Shown one piece after another: positions 1-5,635 of a stretch of DNA of 49,091 nucleotides (its first letter is position 1; each line of letters opens with the position of its first letter). The DNA lies in the NCBI GenBank assembly GCA_021324595.1, contig JAJPIV010000068.1:1-49091 (forward strand). The letters run 5' to 3'. The notes beneath the pieces are model-generated. The model did no database searches, was not told where the DNA came from, and saw nothing but the letters and a program-made list of their open reading frames with translations. The translations under genes and the position numbers were made by a program. The stretch is from Actinomycetota bacterium. Its GTDB lineage: Bacteria > Actinomycetota > Actinomycetes > Streptosporangiales > Streptosporangiaceae.

Positions 1-1642
1 CCAGGTAGGCCCACATGGCGAGCATGCCAAGGCGGCGGCCGAGGGACATCTGCACCGGGGCGAGCATGGCCAGCGGCGGCATCCGCCACGCCTCGCGCCC
101 GGGCGCGGCCCGGTCCCGCCGGTCACGCCCGGCCCGCGCACCGCGCGCCGCCGCGGCCGCCCGGCGGCTCCCGCCCGCGCGCCGGCGGGCGAGCCAGCCG
201 CGCAGCAGCACCACGGCGGCGGCCAGCCCGCCCGCCGCCGCGCACCCGATCATGATCATCATGATCTGGCCGGACGAGATGCCCGGGAAGAGGACCGATG
301 CCGTGAGGATCACCGACAGCATGACGAGGACCCCGACGACCACGGTGCCGAACGCGTTCGTCGCCCTGCCGTTCACCCAGGGGCCGAGGACCTCCTTGTC
401 GTTGCAGAGCATCAGCAGGAACACGGTCGCGCTCGGCAGCAGCACCCCGGCGAGCACCTGCACCCCCTCGGTGAGCAGCCCGAGCGGCGATCCGGGGAGC
501 AGCACGACCGTCGCGGCGAGCGCGATCAGCGCGGCGTACATCGCGTAGAAGCCCTTCGCCTGGCGCACGCCGCGGTGCAGCGAGTGCTTCAGGCCGAGCA
601 CGTCGCCGAGCGCGTAGGCGGTGGCGAGCGAGACCGCGAACGCGCCGATCATCGAGGCGTCGAGCAGCGCGATCGCGAAGATCACCCCCGCGGCGCGGCC
701 CGCGTGGGCCGCGATGCCCGCCGCCAGCCCGGCGGCGTCGGTGAACTGCGCGTGCCGCGTCCCCGCGAACGCCGCGGCCGTGGCGCCCATCAGCGCGGCG
801 CCGCCGATCACGGCCACCAGCAGCCCGATCCACAGGTCGCCCTTCTCGTACCGCATGAACCGCGGCGTGATCCGCTTGTCGATGACGTAGGACTGCTGGA
901 AGAACAGCTGCCACGGCGCCACTGTCGTGCCGACGATGCCGATGATCAGCAGCATCACCGTTCCCAGGTGCGCCGATCCGCCCGGGACCGACGGGGCGAG
1001 GAAGCCGGCCGCCACCTGCCCGGCGGGCGGGTGGACCATCACGTAGAGCGGCACGAGCAGCAGCGACCCGGCGCAAAACGCCATCGCCACCCGCTCGAAT
1101 CGCCGGAAGCTCCCGGTCGAGGCCGCGGCCACGATGACCAGCCCGGCCAGGATCACCGCGAGTATCTTCGGAACGCCCAGGTAGCTCGCCGCGAGGGCGA
1201 TGCCGATGAACTCGGTGATGATCGTGAGCGCGTTGAGCGCGAACAGGTCGATGACGCTGAACGCGCCCCAGAACCGGCCGAAGCGCTCCAGGATCAGCCT
1301 CGCGTGGCCGACCCCGGTCACCGCGCCGAGCCGCAGCACCATCTCCTGGTTCACGTATAGGACCGGGATCAGCAGCAGGAACGTCCACAGCAGCCTGGTG
1401 CCGTAGGCCTGGCCGGCCTGGCCGTAGGTGGAGAACGCGCCCGCGTCGTTGTCACCGACCATCACGATCAGGCCGGGGCCGACGATCGCCAGCAGCGTCC
1501 GCAGCCGCGCCCGCCGCGACGAGCGGGCGCCGGCGTCCTCATGCGAGATCGTGCCGAGCGCGCCCCGGATGTCTCCCACGTGCGCCTCGTCGAGCACGGC
1601 GGAGCGACCGGGCGCGGCCAGCCTCGAAGTCGTGGCAGTCAT
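1..1642 (-). CDS. Nramp-related (NRMT-type) Mg2+ transporter, 3' end cut by window edge
   Basis: Polytopic inner-membrane transporter of the SLC11/Nramp fold, 547 residues visible. By comparison with the paralogue at 2171-4054, about 20 C-terminal residues lie outside the window. The TM1 metal motif, DPGN in Mn/Fe Nramps, is GDNDAG here (residues 63-68), and the TM6 MPH motif is replaced by APW. Loss of the soft-metal methionine is typical of Nramp-related Mg2+ transporters (NRMT), so Mg2+ import is the inferred role. The ATG at 1640-1642 has a GAAAGGGG-like ribosome site about 9 bases upstream. The gene is preceded by its own promoter, M-box riboswitch and proline-rich leader ORF, which independently points to Mg2+. 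It lacks the long Pro-rich N-terminus of its paralogue. Substrate is inferred, not shown. Confidence 0.85.
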   Translation of the reverse strand, partial: MTATTSRLAAPGRSAVLDEAHVGDIRGALGTISHEDAGARSSRRARLRTLLAIVGPGLIVMVGDNDAGAFSTYGQAGQAYGTRLLWTFLLLIPVLYVNQEMVLRLGAVTGVGHARLILERFGRFWGAFSVIDLFALNALTIITEFIGIALAASYLGVPKILAVILAGLVIVAAASTGSFRRFERVAMAFCAGSLLLVPLYVMVHPPAGQVAAGFLAPSVPGGSAHLGTVMLLIIGIVGTTVAPWQLFFQQSYVIDKRITPRFMRYEKGDLWIGLLVAVIGGAALMGATAAAFAGTRHAQFTDAAGLAAGIAAHAGRAAGVIFAIALLDASMIGAFAVSLATAYALGDVLGLKHSLHRGVRQAKGFYAMYAALIALAATVVLLPGSPLGLLTEGVQVLAGVLLPSATVFLLMLCNDKEVLGPWVNGRATNAFGTVVVGVLVMLSVILTASVLFPGISSGQIMMIMIGCAAAGGLAAAVVLLRGWLARRRAGGSRRAAAAARGARAGRDRRDRAAPGREAWRMPPLAMLAPVQMSLGRRLGMLAMWAYL

Positions 1643-1713
1643 GGTCAGCACCCCTTTCACCGCCGGTCATGGCGGGATCGGGGGCACGCGGGCGGCGCGG
1701 CCAGGCGCTGCGG

Positions 1714-1833
1714 TCAGGCCCGGCGCGGTCCGGCGGCGAGCGCGGGGGGACCGGGGCGGCGCGCCCGCGTGCCCGGGACGGGCGGGAAGGACGGCGGATG
1801 GGGCCGGTTCCGGCCCGGTCTATCGTGTTCCAC
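1714..1833 (-). CDS. Proline-rich leader peptide (uORF) between M-box and transporter
   Basis: A 39-codon ORF starting with GTG at 1831-1833 and ending with TGA at 1714-1716, in the leader between the M-box and the transporter start at 1642. It has the best Shine-Dalgarno in the region, GGAGGGAGG at 1840-1848, six bases before the GTG. Eleven of 39 residues are proline, including PP pairs at 13-14, 17-18 and 29-30. Proline-rich leader peptides take part in Mg2+ control of Salmonella mgtA and mgtCBR (MgtL/MgtP), where slow proline translation changes Rho access. A similar role here is inference. Random ORFs in DNA this rich in G+C are also rich in Pro and Arg, so the evidence is the ribosome site and the position, not the composition. 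Confidence 0.5.
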   Translation of the reverse strand: MEHDRPGRNRPHPPSFPPVPGTRARRPGPPALAAGPRRA

Positions 1834-1923
1834 GACTCGCCTCCCTCCGCGTCAGTGCTCCGGCACTCCTGGCTCCGGCACCCGTCCGGGAGGCTCGTCC
1901 CCGCGATCGCGCTCGGGGGCAGG

Positions 1924-2096
1924 CACCCCTCTCGTAAGAGCTTTGGCACTCCACGGCGTAGCGCGACCCGATGTCCGCCTGCGCAGCCACTTGGCCTCAC
2001 CCCTTGGGCCGGGGAGAGGTGTCCTGATCCGGAGCGTCTCTCGACGGTTGGGATCAGTGGCCTGTGTCCGTGAAGACGCCTCACCGAACGAGGTGT
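1924..2096 (-). promoter_or_regulatory. M-box (ykoK-type) magnesium riboswitch
   Basis: On the minus strand the two conserved M-box blocks are present in order. The 5' block contains GGTGAGGC (2078-2085). The 3' block contains AGTGCCAAAGCTCTTACGAG, which matches the family signature AGUGCUAAAGCUCUACGA with one substitution and one inserted T. The ends can pair as a closing stem (CACC..CGT at 2088-2095 with ACG..GGTG at 1924-1935). M-boxes bind Mg2+ and repress Mg2+ transporter expression. The aptamer lies about 280 bases upstream of an Nramp-related transporter. No strong intrinsic terminator is visible in between, so the expression platform may be Rho-dependent or act through the leader ORF. 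Confidence 0.88.
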
Positions 2097-2114
2097 CCTT
2101 GTCGACCGCCTTCG

Positions 2115-2170: not shown

Positions 2171-4054
2171 TCAGCCGCCGCCGAGCTGCACGGCCTTGAC
2201 GATCAGCAGCAGCACCGAGACCACGAGGTAGCCGCGGAGCACCAGGACGCCGAGCCTGGTGCCCGGTGACCATCGCACCGGCGCCAGCAGGGCGAGCGGG
2301 GGCATCCGCCAGCTGGCCCGCTCCGCCGGCGTCATCGCCGCGCGCGCGCGCTCCCGCTGGAGCGCCGCGCTGGTGGTCGCGTGCCTTCCCGGGCCGAACC
2401 GCAGCCAGGCCGCCGCGGCCAGCGCGCCGGCGAGCACCACCGCCGCCAGGCCGACAGCCACGCCCCCGGCGCTGACCCCGGTGAACAGCGTGGTCACCAC
2501 CAGCGTGCCGGACAGGATGAGCAGCACCGCGATGATCACCCCGGTGACGGCGTTGAGCCAGCGGGGATTCACCCACGGTCCCAGCACCTGCGGGTCGTTG
2601 CAGAGCAGCAGCAGGAACACGCTGGCGCTGGGCAGCAGCACCCCGGCAAGCGCCTGGACGGCCGTCGTGAGCAGCCCGAGCGGCGCGCCCGGCAGCAGGA
2701 CGATCGCCGCGGCGAGCACCACGAGCGTCCCGTAGCTGGCATAGAAGGCCTTCGCCTCCCGGAACGAGCGGTGCAGCGAGTGCCGGATCCCGAACACGTC
2801 GCCGAACGCGTAGCTGGTCGACAGCGTGACCGCCGCCGCGCCGATGATGCTCGCGTCCAGGAGGATCAGCGCGAATACCCCGCCGAGGAGCCGGCTCTTG
2901 GCCCGGAACGCGTCCGCCACCCCGAGCGCGTCCGTGAAGTGCCCCGCGGCCGGAGTGCCGCGGACCGCGTACCACGTGGCGATCACGATGATGGCGGCGG
3001 AGACGACCACCACGAGCGAGCCGAGGAACGTGTCGGCGCGCTCGTACCTGATGAACCGCGGCGTGATCCGCTTGTCGATGACGTTGGACTGCTGGAAGAA
3101 CAGCTGCCACGGCGCGACCGTCGTGCCCACGATCGCGATGATCAGCAGCACCGCGTCCGAGCTCACGCCATGCTCCACGCCCGGCACGACGAAGTGGTAC
3201 GCGATCGGCCCGGCTTGCGGGTGCGAGAACACCACGAGCGGCACGAACAGGGCCAGGCTGGCGGCGATGAACGCGAACATCGCCCGCTCCCAGCGCCGGA
3301 AGCTGCCGCTCGTGGTGATGCCGATCAGCAGCGCGGCCGCGACCGGCACGGAGACGTAGGAGCTGATCCCGAAGTAGCTCATCGACAGCGAGACGCCGAT
3401 GAACTCAGTGACGATCGTGAGGAAGTTCAGGATGAACAGGTCGCCGACGCTGAACGCGCCCCAGAACCGGCCGAAGCGCTCATTGATCAGCCGGGCGTGG
3501 CCTACGCCGGTCACCGCGCCGAGCCTGACCACCATCTCCTGATTGACGATCAGCACCGGGATCAGCAGGAGCAGCACCCACAGCAGGCTGTAGCCGTAGT
3601 CCTGGCCGGCCTGGGCGTAGGTGGCCACCCCCCCGGCGTCGTTGTCGCCGATCATCACGATCAGGCCCGGGCCGACGATGGCCAGGAACGTCACCAGGCG
3701 CCGGCGCAGGCCCGAGGGCGGCTCCTCGCCCAGGCGCACCCGGCCAAGCGCGCCCTCGATGTCACCGAGGTGCGCCTCGTCGAGCACCGCGCTCGGCCGC
3801 TCGAGCCTGGCGGGCGGGGCGGCCGGCCGCGGGTTGCCCGGCACCGCCGGCCGCGGGCTCCCCGGCACCGCCGGCCGCGGGCTCCCCGGCACCGCCGGCC
3901 GCGGGCTCCCCGGCACCGCCGGCCGCGGGCTCCCCGGCACCGCCGGCCGCGGGCTCGGCCGGGACGGCTCGGGTCCCGGACCCCGCTGGGGAGGCTCCGG
4001 GCCGGGCCGGCCGCCCGGCTCCGGCTCCGCGGGCCGGCCTGGCGGCGGCGTCAC
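2171..4054 (-). CDS. Nramp-related (NRMT-type) Mg2+ transporter with Pro-rich N-terminal extension
   Basis: 627-residue membrane transporter, paralogue of the product of 1-1642. Residues 1-85 are a cytosolic Pro/Gly-rich extension built on an 8-residue SPRPAVPG repeat. The Nramp core follows from about 118. TM1 carries GDNDAGG (136-142) in place of DPGN and TM6 carries VAPWQ (313-317) in place of the MPH motif, so Mg2+ rather than Mn2+/Fe2+ is the likely substrate. The GTG start at 4052-4054 overlaps the stop of the MgtE-N/CBS gene (GTGA), implying co-translation with that putative Mg2+ sensor. No M-box precedes this operon, unlike the second copy downstream. Confidence 0.85.
   Translation of the reverse strand: MTPPPGRPAEPEPGGRPGPEPPQRGPGPEPSRPSPRPAVPGSPRPAVPGSPRPAVPGSPRPAVPGSPRPAVPGNPRPAAPPARLERPSAVLDEAHLGDIEGALGRVRLGEEPPSGLRRRLVTFLAIVGPGLIVMIGDNDAGGVATYAQAGQDYGYSLLWVLLLLIPVLIVNQEMVVRLGAVTGVGHARLINERFGRFWGAFSVGDLFILNFLTIVTEFIGVSLSMSYFGISSYVSVPVAAALLIGITTSGSFRRWERAMFAFIAASLALFVPLVVFSHPQAGPIAYHFVVPGVEHGVSSDAVLLIIAIVGTTVAPWQLFFQQSNVIDKRITPRFIRYERADTFLGSLVVVVSAAIIVIATWYAVRGTPAAGHFTDALGVADAFRAKSRLLGGVFALILLDASIIGAAAVTLSTSYAFGDVFGIRHSLHRSFREAKAFYASYGTLVVLAAAIVLLPGAPLGLLTTAVQALAGVLLPSASVFLLLLCNDPQVLGPWVNPRWLNAVTGVIIAVLLILSGTLVVTTLFTGVSAGGVAVGLAAVVLAGALAAAAWLRFGPGRHATTSAALQRERARAAMTPAERASWRMPPLALLAPVRWSPGTRLGVLVLRGYLVVSVLLLIVKAVQLGGG
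3821..3956. repeat. 24-bp tandem repeat coding for SPRPAVPG units
   Basis: About five near-identical copies of a 24-bp GC-rich unit lie inside the N-terminal extension of the Nramp-related gene. The unit is a multiple of three, so copy-number change keeps the frame. The encoded Pro-rich segment is probably disordered. Confidence 0.9.
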
Positions 4055-5361
4055 CGCGCGCGTCCCCGGCGCGAGTCGGGCGGCTCGGCCGCCTCCCGCC
4101 GGCGCCAGTCGTCGGGGAGCGTGGCCTCGAGCACGTCGTCGACGGTGATCAGGCCGATCATCGTCCGCTCCTCGTCCACGACCGGGACGGTGATCAGGTT
4201 GTAGTCGCTCATCAGCACCGCGACGTCCACGACGTCGGTGTCGGTGCCGACCCGGACCGGGTCATCGTCGTAGACCTCGCGCAGCGACGCCGACGGGTCG
4301 GCCTGGAGCAGCGTGACCAGCTTGGCCACGCCGCACAGGTGGCCCTTGTCGTCCAGCGCGTGCACGCTGGTCAGCGCCTCGGGCTGCAGGCCGGCCGATC
4401 CCGACACCGCGGCGATCGCCTCGCCGACGGTGGCCTCTGCGGGCACGGCGACGAACTCCACCCCCATCAGCCCGCCGGCGCTGGCAGGGTTGAAGCCCAG
4501 CAGCGTCAGCACCTTGGTCCGCTGCCCGATCGGAAGCAGGTCGATCACGGCCTGCCGGCGGCGCTGGGGAAGCTCGGAGATCGCGTCGGCGGCGTCATCG
4601 GCCCGCATCCGGCTCAGCACCTCGGCGATCTCCGCGTCGGTCCGGGCGCCGAGCAACCGGGTCGCCAGGTTCTCATCGAGCTCTTCGAAGACATCGGCCT
4701 CAAGCTCGGGGTCGGCGTGGACCTGCCCGAGGATCTCGGTCTCCTCCGCCTTGGACGCCTCCTCGAGCAGGTCGGCGATCTGGGCGGGCTTGAACCGCCG
4801 GATCCGGCCGAACGGCCCGCGCACGAGCGCGCTGGACGCGTGGCCGATCAGCGGCTCGAAGTTCGACCAGTCCTCGTACTTGTGCCAGCCCGCGGGCGAG
4901 GGCGCGAGCAGCCGCCGCACGCCGCGCGGCCGCCGGTGCGTGTCCACCCCGGCCAGCACCCACTCGCGGCCCCGCAGGCGCAGCTCCAGGTCGGCCGCCT
5001 TGACCAGGTGGGCGCGGGGCACGTCGATCAGGCGATGCCCGAGCACGTCGGCGCGCAGCAGCACCTCGCCGTGGCGCCGCTCGAACCTGCGCAGGTCCAG
5101 CCGGGCGCTGGTCAGCCGCAGCTCCTCACCGTCGAACGAGCTGACCTGCTCAAGCGGCACGAACACCTCGCGGTTGCCGAACGCGCCTACCAGCCCGGTC
5201 ACCAGCGGCGGCTCGGCACCGCGGAGCCGCACGATCACGTCGGCCAGCCTGCCGATCGACTCTCCCCGCTTGTCGGTGATCGGCCGCCCGACCAGCTCGG
5301 ACAGGTGCAGGACCCGGACCTGATCACCGGCTCCGTCCCCGGCCGCAGATGGTGTGCTCAC
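4051..5361 (-). CDS. Soluble PRC-barrel / MgtE-N / CBS-pair protein
   Basis: About 436 residues, no membrane segments. Two PRC-barrel-like regions (about residues 15-150) are followed by an MgtE N-terminal helical domain (about 215-315) and two CBS domains (about 320-425). These are the cytosolic Mg2+-sensing parts of MgtE channels without the pore. The gene overlaps the downstream Nramp-related transporter by GTGA, so the protein is probably a Mg2+-responsive partner or regulator of that transporter. The chosen start is GTG at 5359-5361, just before a run that aligns with the PRC domain; GGAAGGG lies 14 bases upstream, which is long. An in-frame ATG at 5509-5511 would add 50 Arg/Pro-rich residues with no domain character. 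Function in Mg2+ homeostasis is inferred. Confidence 0.82.
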   Translation of the reverse strand: MSTPSAAGDGAGDQVRVLHLSELVGRPITDKRGESIGRLADVIVRLRGAEPPLVTGLVGAFGNREVFVPLEQVSSFDGEELRLTSARLDLRRFERRHGEVLLRADVLGHRLIDVPRAHLVKAADLELRLRGREWVLAGVDTHRRPRGVRRLLAPSPAGWHKYEDWSNFEPLIGHASSALVRGPFGRIRRFKPAQIADLLEEASKAEETEILGQVHADPELEADVFEELDENLATRLLGARTDAEIAEVLSRMRADDAADAISELPQRRRQAVIDLLPIGQRTKVLTLLGFNPASAGGLMGVEFVAVPAEATVGEAIAAVSGSAGLQPEALTSVHALDDKGHLCGVAKLVTLLQADPSASLREVYDDDPVRVGTDTDVVDVAVLMSDYNLITVPVVDEERTMIGLITVDDVLEATLPDDWRRREAAEPPDSRRGRAR

Positions 5362-5635
5362 TGTCGTCCACGCAGCCCTTCCGTCTCGCCGCTGCCGTTC
5401 GCCAAGCTCTGGTCGCGGTTGCCGCGGCCGCGGGCACCGCCCGGCACCGGGCCGGCCGTGGATGACCGGCGCATCAAGGGGAACACCAACGGTGCCGGGC
5501 GCGCCACCCATGGCTCACTCTGCCACCGCCCGCGGCCGCGAGCGCCCCGGAATGCTCCCGGTTGCCGCAGGTCGCGGGCGTGGTGGTATGAAGGGCCACG
5601 TCCGGGAAGTGGCCGGCGAGCGGAGGAACGCGGGC

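Follow-up and report, generated by a model that had tools for sequence, protein, structure and literature searches.

Organization of the locus

The question raised by this locus is whether the synthesis of a probable Mg2+ transporter is set by a riboswitch only, or also by the translation of a short open reading frame (uORF) that lies between the riboswitch and the transporter gene. The locus was found in a stretch of 49,091 nucleotides of a Streptosporangiaceae genome (GCA_021324595.1, contig JAJPIV010000068.1), hereafter called the window, and all features described below lie on its minus strand. The initial annotation had placed a leader ORF of 39 codons with 11 prolines between an M-box and the transporter gene, and this ORF was confirmed. 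It starts with GTG, occupies positions 1714..1833, begins 86 nt after the M-box and is preceded by a strong Shine-Dalgarno (SD) region, GGAGGGAGGCGAG (1836..1848), several columns of which are invariant or nearly so in our alignments (A1 and A2). Codons 4-6 carry the conserved GATAGACC / GTAGTCC motif (1817..1824; alignment A2). At least 11 prolines are found for 13 of the 1924 start codons in the window that are followed by 39 open codons (0.7%). The C-rich and G-poor character that had been ascribed to positions 1741-1800 also held, with 34 C against 18 G on the transcript strand. Ranked among all 60-mers from the two strands of the window, this C excess falls at the 99.2 percentile. Rho could possibly load at this segment.

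The gene behind the uORF (2..1642, continuing past the end of the window) encodes an NRMT-like transporter of the Nramp type (PF01566), with its start at 1642 and the SD sequence AAAGGGG at 1651..1657. Its best solved relative is 7qia (164 bits), which we take to be the Mg2+ transporter EleNRMT. In helix 6, GTTVAPW of the window protein aligns to GTTIAPW of 7qia and provides a TxxA motif; helix 1 reads DAGA, against DAGG in 7qia, and lacks the DxxG motif. According to the available text of PMC8806188, NRMTs carry TxxA/T in helix 6, replacing the Met motif, and DxxG in helix 1. Because 7qia is the closest solved relative and helix 6 has TxxA, a role in Mg2+ transport is likely despite the DAGA in helix 1. 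Upstream of the M-box lies a paralogous Nramp gene (2171..4054), 63% identical to the downstream one, and upstream of this paralog a gene for a protein with matches to the MgtE_N, CBS and PRC domains (4051..5511). Read by eye, the paralog has a proline-rich N-terminus (3838-3955) made of repeated RPAVPGSP units, encoded by 24-nt direct repeats.

The M-box (ykoK) Mg2+ riboswitch aptamer (1920..2099) matches Rfam model RF00380 over its full length (positions 1-169), with 134.1 bits against a gathering score of 44, and is the single RF00380 match in the whole genome. M-boxes were recovered in 4 of 5 genomes of the genus, 57 of 341 of the family, 41 of 297 of the order and 34 of the 396 genomes drawn in a sample of the phylum.

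Occurrence of the uORF in related leaders

To collect uORFs from other leaders, a picker was used that combined an SD threshold with a bonus for the N-terminal motif and a minimum length cut. A uORF of 15-62 codons with an SD sequence was picked in 71 of the 74 loci having an anchorable Nramp start. These loci have the M. tuberculosis-type arrangement of an SD sequence and a uORF between M-box and target gene, the M-box being unrecognised in six loci of the Nramp set. Two of the misses (L113 and L131) are 13-codon ORFs, under the length cut; the third (L048) gave none by the picker rule, yet it has a 46-codon ORF nearer its aptamer. Among the best 80 named loci listed in the scan for transporter relatives, both an M-box and a uORF are present in many of those from Streptomyces, Kitasatospora, Streptacidiphilus and further actinobacteria. 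Two Streptosporangiaceae MAGs (L071, 77%, and L136, 78% identity) are among the best named relatives listed for the transporter, which agrees with the family of the window. Alignment A1 comprises 62 of the 71 loci; L102, L121, L122, L138, L146, L172, L174, L176 and L178 were omitted, being too divergent or having a doubtful transporter start. L066 and L136 are near-identical and probably represent one organism.

A model of the start region (R1), whose seed includes mycobacteria-like rows, had hits in 13 of 394 genomes of the class; 9 of these belong to a single family, which we take to be Mycobacteriaceae on account of a PPE-like protein encoded downstream in L194. The sensitivity of R1 is low, as it did not recover G016, the genome of its own seed row L009. 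The model finds further mycobacteria-like genomes beyond its seed, and uORF starts from genomes inferred to be mycobacterial align with window-type uORFs over a very short piece (A2).

Short ORFs with an SD sequence behind the M-box were also seen outside the class, within the same phylum (L034, L039, L045, L055, L059 and L179). In L034, L039 and L045 the ORF is preceded by a hairpin and T run resembling a terminator, and it has a start (MDSEPG / MESDPG) that resembles the window-type uORF; if these ORFs are truly homologous, the element predates the class. No obvious short ORF was seen behind the M-box in L038, L040, L044 and L054, likewise from outside the class. In several loci (L138, L002-L005, L009, L013, L014, L016, L019, L021, L026 and L027) the uORF is followed, as judged by eye, by a small protein starting with MTITI/MSITI, directly followed in L138 by the Nramp gene.

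The end of the uORF pairs with a downstream arm

The main feature of these leaders, absent from the initial annotation, is that the end of the uORF constitutes one arm of a covarying helix (helix A) that competes with the sequestration of the transporter SD sequence. The last codons of the uORF, GGCACGCGG, are complementary to a downstream arm, CCGCGTGCC, which ends 35-45 nt ahead of the transporter start in 57 of the 62 loci. In the window, the 5' arm or antisequestor (GGGCACGCGGGCG, 1762..1774, inside the uORF) and the 3' arm (CGCCCGCGTGCCC, 1682..1694) form 13 bp with zero mismatch (1774-1762 with 1694-1682), a helix that is part of the minimum-energy fold of leader 1860-1630 (z -2.9).

All nine positions of the aligned arms pair in 37 of the 62 loci and eight of the nine in another 18. 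The fraction of paired cells is 93.7%, against a mean of 88.2% after swapping arms between loci (0 of 5000 swaps reaching the own value), and two-sided, thus compensatory, changes number 29 where 6.9 are expected from the swaps (0/5000); for the 34 distinct arm pairs these changes number 14 against 4.2 (0/5000). The number of further pair types, 15 against 12.8 in swapped arms, is not beyond the swaps at 1% (357/5000; 128/5000 for distinct arms). The signal is weaker in the named loci, where 13 (pairing) and 4 (two-sided changes) of 5000 swaps reach the own value, against none for the remaining genomes. In terms of energy, own arms form duplexes of -19.6 kcal/mol against -16.9 kcal/mol for swapped arms (0 of 5000 permutations as low), and the own duplex lies below the shuffled mean in 62/62 loci. 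Since arm swaps ignore relatedness, the arms were also mapped on a tree of the Nramp proteins (56 of the 62 loci, the protein piece being too short in 6). In tree order, the pair at position 5 has changed from C-G to U-A in apparently three separate places (Streptacidiphilus L087/L100, L089 and L025), and the U-G forms of L028 and L156 adjoin L025.

The arms were joined without guidance by RNAalifold in three self-defined subsets (15/17, 20/20 and 25/25 loci); on the joint 62-row alignment it returned only three pairs, and helix A was not among them. With the MAFFT register left unadjusted, the signal weakens (86.3% paired against 83.4%, 0/500), and sliding the 3' arm by -2 raised the covariation score from 0.189 to 0.217, yet left 64.9% paired, an effect that we think stems from one group being aligned two columns off. 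The register underlying our counts uses the final [TC]G[CT][CT] in the aligned block and is blind to the uORF arm; it was devised after the MAFFT-register and sliding results. It mis-assigns L064 (5/9 pairs), which was retained in the counts. An earlier motif rule, which often took a more 5' arm, scored 59 of the 62 loci at 75.9% paired against 73.4% swapped and was replaced after this result. In addition, 15 held-out loci were tried, in 12 of which a uORF was taken; L153, L182 and L184 were missed by the filter though uORFs exist there. The expected arm formed the best helix in 5 of the 12 (L164, L165, L167, L088 and L097), with weak shuffle support (5 to 11 of 100 shuffles reach them), and not in 6; in L082 it is visible by eye, second to another stem.

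The reading frame is kept up to this arm. The initial annotation had named missing conservation of the frame among relatives as an outcome that would refute its reading; in 57 of the 62 loci, however, start and arm lie a whole number of codons apart, and in 55 of the 62 the stop codon directly follows the 9-nt paired arm. In the five loci whose uORF has lost the frame at the arm (L018, L020, L022, L032 and L168), 9/9 helix A pairs are retained throughout. Within the genus of the window, the stop is found at the arm in L031, 15 nt later in L011, 48 nt later in the window itself (L001) and, frame-shifted, 44 nt after the arm in L022 and L032. With its stop 48 nt beyond the 5' arm, the window uORF would therefore not place a terminating ribosome on the arm. 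Likewise, as the stop lies past the arm in four of the five loci of the genus, the window among them, ribosomes would pass through the arm there and not stop on it, and a step involving a parked ribosome may not apply to these four.

Predicted sequestration of the transporter Shine-Dalgarno sequence

In the window, the putative sequestor consists of a 5' strand, GTGCCCC (1681..1687), that overlaps the 3' arm of helix A, a 3' strand, GGGGTGC (1648..1654), that overlaps the transporter SD sequence (own against swapped 0/5000 over the 62 loci), and an inner hairpin, CCGCC ... GGCGG (1660..1675), that was read by eye. Over the 62 loci, pairing between the transporter SD and the 3' arm, extended by the C-rich sequence that continues it, is stronger within the same leader than after swapping (0/5000), and stronger than for shuffled sequence in 46. 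In 55 of the 62 loci, letters of the helix A arm take part in the best SD-hiding pairing, and because both structures require the same letters, helix A and the SD pairing are mutually exclusive in those 55. In silico, the leader thus has what characterizes MgtL/CorL, mutually exclusive structures linked to a uORF, and also what characterizes translation attenuators, an overlap between the uORF arm, its partner and the SD sequestor.

When the uORF arm was forced to be single-stranded, the predicted cost of opening the transporter SD went up in 38 of the 62 loci and down in 8 (p 9e-7), and in the window it rose by 4.0 kcal/mol. Forcing 9 nt elsewhere, as a control, raised the cost in 3 loci and lowered it in 7. 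An earlier, looser form of the test, in which several helices were wrong, gave 34 up and 13 down of 60 loci. Placing a 30-nt ribosome footprint over the arm rather than over the uORF start gave 28 up and 22 down among the 62 loci, which is not significant (p 0.14). The RNA pairing and the predicted sign of SD opening are supported by these comparisons and folds; the ribosome as the agent, the direction in the cell, the link to Mg2+ and the part of Rho are inferred.

The opposite sign has to be weighed at this point. Translation of the uORF could activate the transporter gene by shielding the transcript from Rho, with helix A bringing the stop codon near the transporter SD for re-initiation. 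This would fit the stop codons directly behind the arm in 55 of the 62 loci, the C excess (99.2 percentile) within the window uORF and the account of M. tuberculosis in the available text of PMC12810186, in which the pe20 M-box leader ends by Rho and both pe20 and rv1535 carry expressed uORFs. However, the folds predict that the SD sequence closes once the uORF arm is occluded (38 against 8 loci), and the frame-shifted uORFs terminate elsewhere and still keep helix A; we consider positive coupling rather unlikely. In three loci that were taken as mycobacterial (L189, L191 and L195) the end of the uORF carries, as seen by eye, GCCTCCAG, which is complementary to AGGAGGC in the SD region of the small gene that follows, and therefore the coupling in those loci may have the opposite sign.

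Selection on the peptide and on the nucleotides

The prolines of the window uORF had originally been put forward as the signal that is read. This was not borne out by the comparison, as proline makes up 28% of the window uORF against a median of 12% elsewhere, PP occurs in 8 of the 71 uORFs (window included) and pN/pS of the uORF frame is 0.97 (mean over all pairs of 57 rows, the 5 frame-shifted of the 62 being excluded), against 1.02 and 0.86 in the other frames. Given the overall pN/pS, no clear signal of purifying selection on the peptide was obtained in the 57 rows. An MgtL-like start, acid-x-acid-x-P, is present in 15 of the 71 uORFs, that of the window included, and conserved proline or acidic signal codons such as those of MgtL/CorL were not found among the 71. 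A sensor based on ribosomes that pause or drop off at Pro or acidic codons when Mg2+ is low, the mechanism implied by the initial annotation's analogy, could appeal to the 11 prolines in 39 codons, to these 15 starts and to the inverse relation between uORF and transporter that is described for MgtL/CorL in the available parts of PMC11552253 and PMC11282234. Against it stand the poor conservation of the prolines, the scarcity of PP, the pN/pS value and the fact that Streptomyces uORFs are typically acidic at codon 2, followed by Ser/Cys, and we regard it as improbable; a proline-run sensor as a conserved feature was rejected on proline fraction, PP count and pN/pS.

The start of the uORF is a different matter for the suggestion that it encodes a functional small protein, like that proposed for Rv1805A. 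An N-terminal S-P(-G) motif is conserved over several families, and in the N-terminal part pN/pS is 0.92 and third positions change slightly more often than the other two (0.323 against 0.264 and 0.255). The middle, between both paired elements, has a pN/pS of 1.09, however; the C-termini are out of frame in 5 of the 62 loci; and none of the nine uORF peptides tried had a Pfam or NCBIfam match. Moreover, Ser is written as AGT in 134 of 184 cases in uORF codons 2-10, against 8 of 89 in Nramp codons 2-20, a preference that is a nucleotide-level constraint near the uORF start. We therefore deem a functional peptide very improbable. Along the same stretch, AGT for Ser (or AGA for Arg) before CCG in codons 4-6 (window 1817-1824; A2) is conserved to a far greater extent than the amino acid. 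What the loci retain is the start, the frame, the stop position and the RNA pairing, and from the alignments it appears that translation and RNA shape are under selection, and not the peptide.

Two further features near the start were followed and rejected. An out-of-frame TAG or TAA occurs near the uORF start in 65 of the 71 loci, stops in the other frame in 10 of the 71; an additional uORF (uORF1) coupled to the uORF via this stop was dismissed, as a start with an SD sequence was present in just 6 of 31 loci. The counts of a TAG[T/A]CC–GG[A/T]CT pairing seemed to covary; by position, the matches proved to be aptamer sequence common to one clade and, in another clade, a local pairing close to the start.

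Other pairings in the leader

Inside the uORF, the minimum-energy fold contains a hairpin (H1, 1801..1816) of 6 bp with a 4-nt loop. Its covariation is modest, with 84.2% of the cells paired (40 of 500 shuffles reach this) and a covariation score reached by 1/500; a 5-bp version gave 0/5000. In the same fold the uORF SD pairs with a 3' partner within the uORF (helix S, 1783..1797); own helices have -17.5 kcal/mol against -16.3 for swapped ones (0/5000) and lie below shuffled sequence in 46 of the 62 loci. Following the M. tuberculosis model, GCCTCCC (1888..1894) is a candidate anti-SD to the uORF SD, and in the window the two form a 7-bp pairing with a duplex energy of -24.1 kcal/mol. Over the 62 loci such an anti-SD was not recovered (2482 of 5000 swaps reach the own value; own below shuffled in 25/62) and the candidate was rejected. 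The tail of the aptamer pairs with the platform better than when swapped (2/5000).

Loci without a recognised M-box

The uORF may conceivably be a passenger and the M-box alone control the gene, as with the ykoK M-box of B. subtilis, which uses an intrinsic terminator alone (as described in the available text of PMC12810186). The conservation of SD, start, frame and stop and the covariation of helix A argue against this, and so does the retention of the uORF in loci without a recognised M-box; we give this view hardly any credence. In L075, L076, L082, L088, L097 and L108 an M-box was not found at E values up to 0.1, and these loci, like L186, have kept the uORF; some Streptomyces are among such cases. 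A recheck of the loci matched by R1 found an M-box at gathering score in 15 of 17, L186 and L196 being without.

Fragments of the M-box are apparently kept in L075, L076, L097 and L108, as seen by eye, and the leader of L186 is Streptomyces-like. By eye we also noted a palindrome, TTGCG-N6-CGCAA, before a TATGCT box upstream of the uORF in L076, L082, L088 and L186, a candidate repressor operator that possibly has replaced the riboswitch in those Streptomyces(-like) Nramp leaders. L196, of family f5, is a weak match of R1, perhaps by chance; its 24-codon ORF ends in GAR-stop and is followed by a gene with an MFS drug transporter-like start.

A proposed two-stage leader

The window uORF is real and conserved and, judging from the comparison of leaders, probably translated. 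With such an ORF behind an M-box and before an Mg2+-type transporter gene, the suggestion made at the outset of a leader with two inputs, Mg2+ and translation, is plausible. Since the last codons of the uORF pair with RNA that otherwise would hide the transporter SD, translation of the uORF probably sets the amount of transporter. More explicitly, we propose a leader of two stages, an M-box followed by a uORF whose end acts as antisequestor of the transporter SD and whose full translation would repress, a scheme to which we grant an even chance. In the first stage, by homology to M. tuberculosis, the M-box would set transcript survival and/or uORF initiation in response to Mg2+. In the second, the last codons of the uORF, when free, would pair with the CGUGCC arm in helix A, leaving the transporter SD open for translation; a ribosome over these codons would melt helix A, upon which the arm would pair with the SD and switch the transporter off. 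Complete and efficient translation of the uORF would thus repress, stalled, aborted or absent translation would derepress, and control would act at least partly on translation initiation. One consideration speaks against this: should uORF translation increase in low Mg2+, as the M. tuberculosis proposal has it, then simple repression by the uORF would run counter to the M-box, unless abortion of translation or Rho dominates. A broader reading, in which the uORF and helix A form a general actinobacterial module for sensing translation that can be separated from the sensor preceding it (mostly an M-box in the loci seen, but apparently a palindromic operator in some Streptomyces), is tentative and in our estimate somewhat short of an even chance.

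In the translation attenuators of erm and cat genes, the position of the ribosome in the leader ORF decides the sequestration of the downstream SD. The proposed leader would resemble these in that the ribosome in the leader ORF governs SD sequestration, and differs in that the pairing arm is the end of the uORF, a riboswitch lies upstream and no inducing drug or stall peptide is known. A study of the interplay between a B12 riboswitch and the uORF following it has reportedly been made in M. tuberculosis (PMC11260477); the combination of riboswitch and uORF in an actinobacterium is alike, while ligand and genes differ.

Another related system is the pe20/rv1535 leader of M. tuberculosis, described as the first M-box with a translational platform (D'Halluin et al. 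2026, PMC12810186, as are the following statements, all from its available text). Termination of the pe20 leader is by Rho, rv1535 responds marginally to Rho depletion, and mycobacterial M-boxes include a Mn-transporter class. Both leaders consist of an M-box, a strong SD, a short uORF and the target gene, and most peptides of both have a proline at codon 7. The joining of M-box and uORF is therefore not unique to the window. The present target is an NRMT-like Nramp gene, however, and the end of the uORF forms helix A against the SD sequestor. The peptide of uORF2/Rv1805A is conserved, termed mycobacterium-specific and left open as to its role, whereas we found the element in other Actinomycetes, with a peptide under no detectable selection and an anti-SD without covariation support in the 62 loci, unlike the uORF2 proposal.

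MgtL and CorL of the enterobacterial mgtA and corA leaders, in the available text of PMC11552253 and PMC11282234, share with the present leader an Mg2+ transporter, a short uORF and two exclusive structures. The inverse relation of uORF translation and transporter is reported there and predicted here. Differences are that no M-box is described in those texts, that their output is Rho termination and that the proline/acidic signal is not conserved in our set. Whereas the combination of M-box and uORF is already known from M. tuberculosis, a search of open-licence papers returned none on the uORF outside mycobacteria or on helix A.

If the proposed scheme is true, a riboswitch and a ribosome acting one after the other would determine the Mg2+ supply in several actinobacterial families, and the conserved uORF behind the M-box in M. 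tuberculosis may serve through its translation as such, not through its peptide. The two arms of helix A lend themselves to clean compensatory mutants in Streptomyces.
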